Shown in pieces: positions 5,771 through 14,450 of a DNA stretch of 14,868 nt. The translations under genes and the position numbers were made by a program. How positions within the stretch are numbered: the first letter of the stretch is position 1; each line of letters begins with the position of its first letter. The DNA is taken from positions 1-14,868 of the forward strand of contig DAOVYB010000019.1 of NCBI GenBank assembly GCA_030635835.1. Reading direction: 5' to 3'. The DNA is from Gammaproteobacteria bacterium. GTDB taxonomy: Bacteria; Pseudomonadota; Gammaproteobacteria; UBA6429. The notes beneath the pieces are model-generated. The model did not search any database, had not been told where the DNA came from, and worked only from the letters and a program-made list of their open reading frames with translations.

Positions 5771-6472
5771 TCAATCTTCAGATTTCAAAATGGAATAGCA
5801 TGTTGGATCGGGAATATTGGCGGCTTCAAAACCTTGTTGACGCAAGAGACACGAATCGCACTTACCACATGCTTTACCCTTAACATCAGGCGAATAACAG
5901 GACAATGTTTGAGAGTAATCAATGCCTAATTCTACCCCTTTTTGAATAATTTCAGCCTTGCTTAAATGAATTAAGGGTGTTTCAATCTTAATCAGTTGGC
6001 CTTCTACACCTCTTTTTGTTGCTAAATTAGCCATGGTCTGAAAAGCGGCAATATATTCAGGACGACAATCCGGATAGCCCGAATAGTCAACGGCATTAAC
6101 GCCAATAAATATCGCTTCCGCATCCAGAACTTCGGCCCAACCTAAAGCTAAAGATAAAAATACGGTATTACGCGCAGGTACGTAGGTAACGGGTATTCCC
6201 TCAGGAATGCCCTTTGATGAATTATGAGGTACCGCAATAGTGTCATCGGTTAAAGCAGAGCCACCAATGTCACCTAAACCAAGATTAACAACTTTGTGTT
6301 CAACCACGCCAAGACTGGAAGAAACCGTTTTAGCACTTTCTAGTTCAATTTGATGTCGCTGACCATAATTAAAACTCATGGCATAACAGTCATAGCCAGA
6401 GTCACGGGCAATGGCGAGTGTGGTGGCGGAATCTAATCCCCCGGAAACAAGAACAACGGCTTTTTTAGTCAT
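5771..6472 (-). CDS. queC: 7-cyano-7-deazaguanine (preQ0) synthase QueC
   Basis: QueC is the 233-residue cytosolic enzyme that converts 7-carboxy-7-deazaguanine to preQ0 using ATP and ammonia, on the route to queuosine in tRNA. The N-terminal PP-loop [11 protein letters not shown] lies at 10-20, and [13 protein letters not shown] at 98-110 is a family motif. Four zinc ligands form the C-terminal cluster: C192 in [18 protein letters not shown], then C202, C205 and C208. The length is normal and all key residues are present. The gene follows queE but is separated from it by 142 bp holding a GC-rich hairpin and an AAAAG repeat, so its expression may be attenuated relative to queE. The Shine-Dalgarno sequence before the ATG is poor. 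Confidence 0.97.
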
Positions 6473-6494: not shown

Positions 6495-6519
6495 AAAAGA
6501 AAAGAAAAGAAAAGAAAAG
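6495..6519. repeat. Pentanucleotide microsatellite (AAAAG)5
   Basis: Five exact tandem AAAAG units lie 23 bp upstream of the queC start (CTTTT units on the coding strand). Slipped-strand copying could change the unit number and so the leader length between the upstream hairpin and queC. It is not in a coding region. Confidence 0.85.
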
Positions 6520-6523
6520 ATAA

Positions 6524-6600
6524 AACCACTGGGGGCACGGGGAACACGGGGAAAAGAAATTAAAATTATAAACCCCGTGTTCCCCGTGTTCCCCGTGGTT
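6524..6600 (-). terminator. Large GC-rich inverted repeat between queE and queC; possible attenuator/terminator
   Basis: The arms 6524-6551 and 6573-6600 are 28 nt each and match at 25 of 28 positions, around a 21-nt AT-rich loop. Each arm contains tandem CACGGGGAA units. On the minus (transcribed) strand the hairpin is followed by TTTTATCTTTTCTTTTC, so it has the shape of an intrinsic terminator or attenuator in front of queC. It could equally be an intergenic repeat element that happened to land here. The arms share no core sequence with the elements at 8700 and 14325. Confidence 0.6.
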
Positions 6601-6614
6601 ATTCTTTTTAAGTA

Positions 6615-7298
6615 TTAACGGCCCGGCTCATCGTTCCACAAATACTTGTGGAGTTGCATTTGAAAGCGTACTGCGAGCTGATCTTCTATAATCCAGTCTG
6701 CAAGTTGTTGTGGTTTTAATTGTTGATGGCTTGTAGAAAAGAAAACTTCACATCGAGATAACAAATCATATTCTTTAATTTTATTAACAGCCCATTCGTA
6801 ATCATTGCGATCACAAATAACAAATTTCAATTGATCATGAGCGGTTAACAATTCAATATTATTATAATCGTTTTTTGCCTCTTCTTTTGAGGCAGGTGTT
6901 TTCAAATCCATGACACGACTAACACGTTTATCAACAGCAGATATATCAAGCGCACCACTTGTTTCTAATGAAACCTCATAACCTTCATCACATAGTAACT
7001 TCAGTAAATTAATACACTGTTTCTGTGCTAAAGGTTCACCGCCCGTAACTGTAATATATTTTGCATTGTATTTTTTTACTTCAGACAGAATATCCTGCAA
7101 TGAAAACCATTCTCCACCTTTAAATGCATAGGTGGTGTCACAATATTCACAGCGTAATGGACAACCGGTTAAGCGAACAAATACTGTCGCGTAACCAGAT
7201 GTTCGGGATTCACCCTGCAAGGAATAAAAAATTTCAGTAATACGTAAACGTGAAGCAGATGATTCAACATCTGCTTCAGTTTCTTTAATTTGCGACAT
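6615..7298 (-). CDS. queE: 7-carboxy-7-deazaguanine synthase QueE (radical SAM)
   Basis: QueE is a 227-residue radical SAM enzyme that contracts the ring of 6-carboxy-tetrahydropterin to 7-carboxy-7-deazaguanine, the step before QueC. The iron-sulfur cluster motif CxxxCxxC is C46, C50 and C53 in GCPLRCEYCDTTYAF, and the SAM-binding GGEP is at 86-89 in TVTGGEPLAQ. Upstream, RITEIFYSLQGES at 19-31 is the typical QueE substrate-binding opening. The first 18 residues are poorly conserved, but no better internal start is evident. It lies five bases after cpoB, so it is probably cotranscribed with the tol-pal genes, an arrangement also seen in Pseudomonas. No queD is present in the window. Confidence 0.96.
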   Translation of the reverse strand: MSQIKETEADVESSASRLRITEIFYSLQGESRTSGYATVFVRLTGCPLRCEYCDTTYAFKGGEWFSLQDILSEVKKYNAKYITVTGGEPLAQKQCINLLKLLCDEGYEVSLETSGALDISAVDKRVSRVMDLKTPASKEEAKNDYNNIELLTAHDQLKFVICDRNDYEWAVNKIKEYDLLSRCEVFFSTSHQQLKPQQLADWIIEDQLAVRFQMQLHKYLWNDEPGR

Positions 7299-8699: not shown

Positions 8700-8823
8700 A
8701 TGACGGATAGCAAGAAGTCAGAGAACAAGGCAAAAAGTTATGAAAAAGCGGAGCTTACAATAAGTAAGTGAGCATTTTGAATAATTTTTTAACGCCGTTA
8801 TCTGATTTCTCGCTATTCGTCAT
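8700..8823 (+). repeat. Palindromic MITE-like element, copy B (between tolB and pal)
   Basis: The terminal inverted repeats at 8701-8722 and 8801-8822 match at 19 of 22 positions and open with GACGRATAG; one further complementary base on each side (8700 and 8823) is included. Inside lie blocks shared with the element at 14325-14450 at identical spacing: ACAAGGCAAAA (8725-8735), GAAAAAGCGGAG (8742-8753), a small hairpin CTTAC/GTAAG (8754-8768), TGAGCATTTTGA (8769-8780) and TTTTAACGC (8787-8795). The shared core is on the plus strand, antisense to the tol genes. It encodes no protein. One arm overlaps the tolB stop codon. Confidence 0.85.
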
Positions 8824-14324: not shown

Positions 14325-14450
14325 TTCACGAATAGTTAGGGGGGGAGATTACTGCGTTAAAAGCCACCTCAAAATGCTCATGTACTAAATGTACACTCCG
14401 CTTTTTCGTTGACTTTTGCCTTGTACTCTTCCCCCCTAACTATCCGTGAA
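14325..14450 (-). repeat. Palindromic MITE-like element, copy A (between ruvC and ruvA)
   Basis: The terminal inverted repeats at 14325-14348 and 14427-14450 match at 22 of 24 positions and open with TTCACGRATAG, ending in runs of G and C. The inner part, read on the minus strand, repeats the blocks of copy B at the same spacing: ACAAGGCAAAA (14424-14414), GAAAAAGCGGAG (14407-14396), a small hairpin TGTAC/GTACA (14395-14381), TGAGCATTTTGA (14380-14369) and TTTTAACGC (14362-14354). The 71-nt core shares 54 positions with copy B, with no indel. It carries no open reading frame. It begins 17 bases after the ruvC stop and ends about 19 bases before the ruvA start. Confidence 0.85.

Follow-up and report, generated by a model that had tools for sequence, protein, structure and literature searches.

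Two hairpins in a gammaproteobacterial genome are MITE-type insertions of a large ERIC-like family whose core shows covariation and a strand bias

We find that two hairpin elements in a 14,868-nucleotide stretch of a gammaproteobacterial genome (contig DAOVYB010000019.1; "the window" below means this whole stretch) belong to a large ERIC-like family of non-autonomous, MITE-type insertions, and that the structure-preserving change within this family is real and significant. On balance, we lean towards the reading that the core of these insertions is kept for the strand that folds, likely as an RNA that affects messages, and that the stems change by the copying of one arm onto the other.

Copy B is a complete hairpin element in the gap between tolB and pal (8701–8822). 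Its core strand is the plus strand, antisense to the tol-pal genes, and its right end contributes the tolB stop codon (TGA, 8820–8822 on the minus strand). Copy A, also complete, lies between ruvC and ruvA (14326–14449) with its core on the minus strand, sense to the ruv genes. (Both gene pairs are on the minus strand, and the gene identities were checked with Pfam.) The copies share an 84-nt inverted match of 76% identity, and both cores match our core model R1 (copy B: 8722–8802, plus strand, 81 positions of the model, 92.5 bits; copy A: 14347–14427, minus strand, 92.3 bits). Both copies fold far better than their own shuffles do, with z scores of −10.4 and −10.1 on the core strand and −6.9 and −8.1 on the other strand.

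Along the plus strand of copy B, the core alignment places the unpaired, nearly invariant block AAGGC of the 5′ side at 8727–8731. Next comes the 5′ half of a hypervariable 10-bp middle stem (8732–8741, from the covariation tests), followed in the core alignment by the GA of the lower tandem G.A (8742–8743, opposite the GA at 8779–8780) and by the AAAAGC stem half with the GGA of the upper G.A motif (8744–8752). The halves of the tip stem, GCTTAC (8753–8758) and GTAAGT (8764–8769), are defined by tip complementarity and covariation. On the 3′ side, GAGCATTTTGA (8770–8780, core alignment) holds the partners of both G.A motifs, GC, the bulged A, and TTTT; it is followed by the 3′ half of the middle stem (8781–8790, covariation tests) and the conserved, unpaired block AACGCC (8791–8796, core alignment). 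The initial annotation of the window had noticed that the paired segments differ between the two copies and yet stay complementary within each, and the segments do pair as it described. The tip stem is TGTAC/GTACA in copy A and CTTAC/GTAAG in copy B. The middle stem pairs GTCAAC with GGTGGC in copy A (4 of 6 Watson-Crick and one G-T) and AGTTAT with ATAATT in copy B (5 of 6 and one G-T). The outer arms are TTAGGGGGG:CCCCCCTAA in copy A and AAGAAGTCAGA:TCTGATTTCTC in copy B (9 Watson-Crick, one G-T, and one A-C of 11).

The window also holds a separate hairpin with CACGGGGAACACGGGG arms (6515–6609), between the frames 5771–6472 and 6615–7298. The window's Rfam hits, to microRNA and frameshift-element models and below threshold, fall on this separate hairpin (within 6495–6627) and not on copies A or B.

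At the tolB-pal site, related genomes show the element both present and absent. We compared four relatives (G001, G002, G003, and G011) whose TolB is 85–87% identical to that of the window. A full copy is present in the window and in G003, a middle-deleted copy is present in G002, and the site is empty in G001 and G011, where the pal leader follows shortly after the tolB stop codon. The same four relatives have 35, 40, 49, and 16 matches to R1, respectively, or 140 in total (E ≤ 0.01; the best 150 candidates per genome were scored). Both window copies lie between same-direction genes, as would be expected of an RNA by which the host regulates the tol-pal and ruv operons in cis. We consider that reading extremely improbable: 140 copies in four relatives refute it as a general reading, and it also has against it the empty sites, the opposite orientations at the two sites, and the lack of any Rfam match of the window copies. 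More broadly, the element is not a riboswitch-like RNA of the host because it is an insertion with transposon ends, as judged by the empty sites and by the TNA direct repeats and ISPst12-shared end described below.

Within the class to which the Salinicola genome belongs, 83 of 185 genomes have a match to R1 at E ≤ 1e-4 (best 25 candidates per genome scored), as do 31 of 198 within the phylum of the Alistipes genome (best 23 candidates per genome scored), where each set includes its centre genome. A scan of the collection gave at least 118 stretches. The taxa among the matches listed, which are not a census, include Pseudomonas, Halomonas and relatives, Nitrosomonadales, Ectothiorhodospiraceae, Desulfobacterales, Magnetococcales, Alistipes, and others. 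Seven genomes that were picked for having a hit carry 5 to 82 copies each, with high counts in an Alistipes genome (49), a deltaproteobacterial genome (82), and a Pseudomonas genome (74). Some 255 R1 matches were aligned in three sets (near, wide, and Salinicola). The wide set comprises loci L001–L100 of 118 genome-contig loci, of which L029, L049, and L058 are also in the near set. Copies of identical score at or near contig ends in one genome (G092) were excluded. In a Magnetococcales genome (G203), contigs C45, C46, C78, and C113 (L326, L327, L329, and L330) end inside ERIC-like hairpins; draft assemblies may therefore lose or break copies.

The fold is supported by covariation across the family. 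R1 was built from 41 cores, and its proposed structure has 27 pairs. (These are 41 of 52 diverse cores, which had been chosen from the core occurrences by two-block and identity filters. We dropped the Bacteroidota-titled L015, L026, L027, L036, L060, L071, and L102, and also L025, L064, L056, and L109.) In the 41 cores, 93.4% of pair cells are paired, as compared to 76.0% in shuffles. The covariation score is 0.503 versus 0.169 in shuffles (0 of 500 reach it), and slid structures score at most 0.098. Seventeen pairs are changed on both sides, versus 14.9 in shuffles (5 of 500 shuffles reach 17). Also, the two tip positions that our search pattern did not fix are complementary to each other in each of the 126 core occurrences (not de-duplicated), in five combinations. 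For a test that considers the tree, we applied a test of our own, modelled on R-scape, with a threshold of E < 0.05, on the 89 of 113 unique cores that are exactly 81 nt long. With 100 null alignments that keep the tree and the substitutions, 13 column pairs were significant, and 13 of 13 were inside the 27-pair structure; with a null that also keeps the column rates, 10 were significant, and 10 of 10 were inside it. The second part of the initial observation, that the unpaired blocks between the paired segments are nearly invariant, holds in the 41-core alignment: these parts are AAGGC, AACGC, the two tandem G.A motifs, and the bulged A. The AAAAGC:GCATTTT pairs show hardly any variation in the 41 cores. 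We also considered a reading frame that starts from RTGAGCATTTTGA and rejected it: in 89 cores, it meets 28 in-frame stops within 11 codons.

Double changes in the stems arise fast and together, as they would if one arm were copied onto the other. We compared 34 pairs of copies whose flanks match (in 4 pairs, both copies are from one locus), and their middle-stem cells comprise 170 that are the same, 107 double-compensated, 22 single-wobble, and 30 broken. The ratio of double to single wobble changes is 107:22, or about 5:1, which fits arm-to-arm copying too, so covarying arms are not sufficient evidence for selection. At the ruvC-ruvA site, three genomes (the window, G001 [L205], and G003 [L165]) have three different self-complementary arm pairs, beside RuvA and RuvC proteins that are 87–91% identical. 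The window's arm TTAGGGGGG has no other occurrence in the 445 kb of the 104 near sequences, which means that none of the other copies in this set was its source. The three self-complementary arm pairs at this site point to arm-to-arm copying plus selection.

The two strands of the hairpin are not equivalent. On the core strand, imperfect pairs in the middle stem are G-T rather than A-C by 56:10 in the near set (p = 7e-9) and by 48:13 in the wide set (p = 8e-6), where the p values are too small because related copies are counted repeatedly and the two sets share three places. The ratio is 17:2 in the Salinicola copies, and all three sets agree in direction. In the outer arms beside the core, the ratio is 137:24, as counted in the 70 of 105 near copies that are in register (11 of 104 wide copies and 0 of 30 Salinicola copies are), and 37 of the 137 come from a single position with a mostly fixed G-T. 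In the fitted alignments, the ratio for the first five outer pairs is 9:15 in the near set and 18:12 in the wide set, so there is no wobble bias there. RNA folding favors the core strand over its complement in 97 of 102, 99 of 103, and 27 of 30 copies, and the fixed G-U and G.A positions add to this difference. As G-T is favored over A-C on the core strand, the fold of one strand seems to be under constraint.

These data bear on whether the covariation could be purely mutational, due to template switching between the arms of the palindrome with no selection on folding. Such switching would account for the excess of double-compensated over single-wobble cells and for the three arm versions at ruvC-ruvA, one of which occurs nowhere else in the near sequences. 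However, copying would also mend AAGGC/AACGC, the G.A pairs, and the bulged A, all of which stay nearly invariant, and it would leave G-T and A-C equal. So, we think that a purely mutational origin is quite improbable, and as copying alone would neither spare the mismatched blocks nor favor G-T, we keep both copying and selection. The initial annotation had gone further and proposed that the pattern is the signature of a folded nucleic acid rather than of a decaying insertion. The significant structure-preserving change, the kept blocks, and a wobble bias that implies folding of one strand support this proposal in part. What it leaves out is that the element was inserted and has the ends of a transposon, and that covariation of the arms is by itself no proof of selection.

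The ends of the elements also carry information about how they move. Direct repeats of TNA flank 10 of 15 places with GAACCTGTTCA-type ends (L166, counted in the 15, matches by chance) and 9 of 14 with GAGGGTGTTTACAAA-type ends. (In scoring the borders, up to 2 substitutions were tolerated per end.) TNA triplets that are repeated directly at both borders are true duplications of the target site; we see them in other members of the family and not at the window copies. For three further end types, TA is present at both borders of 15 of 22, 8 of 9, and 7 of 9 places, and there a TA duplication and a TA end look the same because TA is self-complementary. In P. chengduensis, the left end of one copy (L004) is identical to that of ISPst12 over 16–17 nt, and its right end is one base off. 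This Pseudomonas left end reads GCAGGCCGTTGAAAAA, flanked on the outside by TA, exactly as in ISPst12. Annotations of ISPst12 (1333 bp) exist on one plasmid each of P. putida and P. aeruginosa, and ISPst12 ends at the same spacing, with no transposase named there, are found on another P. putida plasmid. The ISPst12 protein is an IS5-family transposase (DUF772 and DDE_Tnp_1; NF033581 at 264 bits, cutoff 140). It is probably an ISPst12-type transposase that moves the Pseudomonas branch, as judged by this similarity of ends. With empty sites in relatives, target-site duplication, and, in the Pseudomonas branch, ends in common with an autonomous element, the family has the features of MITEs.

The family is not simply an internal deletion of ISPst12, as the hairpin core has no match within the ISPst12 stretches. 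Furthermore, the ends vary between hosts and inside one chromosome: in Salinicola tamaricis, one core is found behind GAGGGTGTTTACAAA, GGGTTTGTACGAAAA, GGTGCTGTCTGAAAA, and related ends. Because the core is present behind several unrelated ends, it is not needed by one transposase. We searched G002 and G003 for an autonomous element that has the ends of the window's lineage at the element's spacing and found none. No autonomous element was found in the Magnetococcales genome or in Salinicola, where the listed frames at places with a single end were inspected by eye. The Magnetococcales genome does have an element of about 52 bp (L334:144–196) that consists of two ends only, without a core, and is possibly an internal deletion product. 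The Pseudomonas copy has matches in 8 plasmid records and 0 phage records, and 3 stretches of viral contigs match the core search pattern.

In the window's lineage, the copies that lie between co-directed genes are mostly antisense (68 antisense versus 12 sense, n = 80, by core strand). The antisense:sense counts per genome are 20:4, 21:3, 18:3, and 8:1, with 1:1 in the window. Eighty copies of this lineage have an antisense gene on their right, and in 64 of the 80 its stop codon is 7–32 nt from the end of the core, which is at or inside the arm of the element. We found no orientation bias in Salinicola (9 sense and 8 antisense of 30) or in the wide set (20 sense, 25 antisense). (All of these counts rest on simple frame calls, and they exclude 12 of 106 near places, at contig edges, and 40 of 111 wide places, 22 at edges and 18 inside a long frame.) The bias may reflect the removal of sense copies inside tight operons of the window's lineage. 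As orientation is unbiased outside this lineage, an effect on messages would not be general.

Another explanation for the strand bias is that the folding strand works as single-stranded DNA, on the lagging strand or as an intermediate of transposition or excision, and that a protein reads its unpaired blocks, as with REP or IS200/IS605 hairpins. Tandem G.A and bulges fold in DNA too, G-T over A-C is expected for DNA hairpins as well, and the orientation bias in the near lineage could reflect a directional target. This seems rather unlikely, though, because TNA direct repeats and IS5-type ends mark double-strand DDE transposition. Also, copies on the complete Salinicola chromosome show no significant replication-strand bias (40 versus 27 as estimated from positions and skew, p about 0.14).

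We return to a core that works as RNA, which we propose operates as follows. Each copy is one long imperfect hairpin with species-specific transposon ends on the outside and the core on the inside. In order, the core presents the AAGGC/AACGC loop, the free 10-bp stem, a tandem G.A, AAAAGC:GCATTTT with its bulged A, a second G.A, and the 6-bp tip. The ends would be moved in trans by DDE transposases, as suggested in Pseudomonas by the identity of ends with ISPst12 (IS5), and presumably elsewhere as well. The core would be retained because its strand folds and displays the invariant blocks. It would act most likely as RNA, transcribed from the neighbouring genes, and the folded RNA would probably alter the processing or stability of messages, as reported for Yersinia ERIC. 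In the window's lineage, copies between co-directed genes would be tolerated mostly when their folding strand is antisense. Most double changes of the stems would come from copying one arm of the palindrome onto the other, and selection would then preserve the unpaired blocks and the wobble pairs of one strand.

A broader reading is possible, and we offer it tentatively. The core might be a portable folded module, probably RNA, that was repeatedly captured by unrelated transposon ends and spread through Gamma- and Betaproteobacteria, Desulfobacterales, Magnetococcales, and Bacteroidota, with ERIC as one enterobacterial offshoot. A factor common to these hosts would read the unpaired blocks, and hence the blocks would be fixed and the stems and ends free. 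If so, a conserved folded core behind interchangeable ends would mean that MITEs can carry functional structured cargo. Regardless, the family provides candidate ends, one candidate transposase, and a testable fold across several phyla, and matching sites with different self-complementary arms are a natural means to separate palindrome copying from structural selection.

Some copies contain inserts. The apical loop of nine near copies is extended by an insert of about 52 nt, alike among them (L190:267–399, L195:2446–2578, L198:2551–2684, L199:2498–2627, L202:2474–2608, L204:538–668, L168:2585–2718, L182:3903–4038, and L187:7878–8009). On the strand opposite the core, this insert has two hairpins with ANGGA-type loops, such as GAACAAGGATGTTC, which we take to resemble the binding consensus of CsrA/RsmA. 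Several of these copies are core-antisense, so the message would show twin ANGGA sites. A second, nested insert (CGTAGTGCCC .. GAGGGTAAACGC type) is found at the AACGC block of several near copies (L189, L140:1329, L182:2071, L183, L184, L197, L204, L185, L220:2627, and L187:7878), as if a smaller element targets the ERIC-like hairpin. A search for UUCG/CGAA tetraloop hairpins (TTCG or CGAA with at least 4 Watson-Crick pairs), which would be a sign of RNA, found none in 243 copies. By eye, a few Salinicola copies with inserts (L283, L284, L295, L296, and L297) have C(TTCG)G hairpins next to the tandem G.A of the core strand.

The nearest known kind of element is ERIC (also IRU or RU-1), of about 127 bp, from enterobacteria and Vibrio. 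ERIC elements have been known since 1990–91 (PMC2229807), and a 2011 paper on ERIC in Gammaproteobacteria is cited in PMC10969869. As described in PMC2229807 and PMC2759123, ERIC is also an intergenic, long imperfect hairpin that has TA ends and makes additions at the 3′ ends of genes. In Yersinia, it is co-transcribed and destabilises upstream messages, and its orientation is crucial (PMC2229807). How such repeats move is described in PMC2759123 as not elucidated. The similarity to R1 is a weak match: in a search of 1,688 bases, one E. coli ERIC (L225) scored 19.0 bits (E = 3e-4), and a second locus scored only 13.4 bits (E = 0.012), over the tip. L225 has CAAG, GGAGCTTAC..GTAAGTGA, and AACGCAG in the same order as the family core, but the AAAAGC:GCATTTT helix is missing from ERIC in the R1 match. 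As for the TA borders of ERIC, our family has TA on both sides in three end types and TNA triplets in two others. We describe the family as ERIC-like without assigning it to ERIC.

On the core strand, the E. coli ERIC copies L225:359–478 and L226:359–482 match the Rfam model RF02818 (V_AS5, Vibrio RNA AS5) with 44.5 and 46.4 bits, where the cutoff is 96. We count this sub-threshold match towards the RNA reading, and V_AS5 may be a Vibrio form of ERIC. A literature search for the origin of V_AS5 found nothing. The window copies have no match up to E = 5 among 4227 Rfam models, V_AS5 included, and six further loci that are not from E. coli match only two microRNA models up to E = 1, off the element. 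Our literature searches, by core sequence and for related repeats, found no description of the family in the sources covered, which left out most subscription journals. The repeat families of P. fluorescens described in PMC2718517 could include members.

Other short mobile repeats share some of these features. REPs and REPINs, with their RAYT transposases, are also intergenic palindromes in Pseudomonas, but REPs are 20–40 bp and tagged with GTAG or CGTC (PMC3733652), whereas ERIC-like copies are mostly about 120–142 bp with TNA or TA borders. MITEs of the IS5 family (ISPst12-like) are similarly short, with TA or TNA borders and inverted ends in common with an autonomous element, but the interior of our family does not match ISPst12 and is found behind several unrelated ends. 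Finally, PMC6382973 describes MITEAba12 of Acinetobacter as a 113-bp MITE that presumably relies on a resident element for its mobilisation in trans. In contrast to our family, it has GGCTTTGTTGCACAAA ends and 9-bp duplications, and its ends are its most conserved part, which is the reverse of the ERIC-like family.
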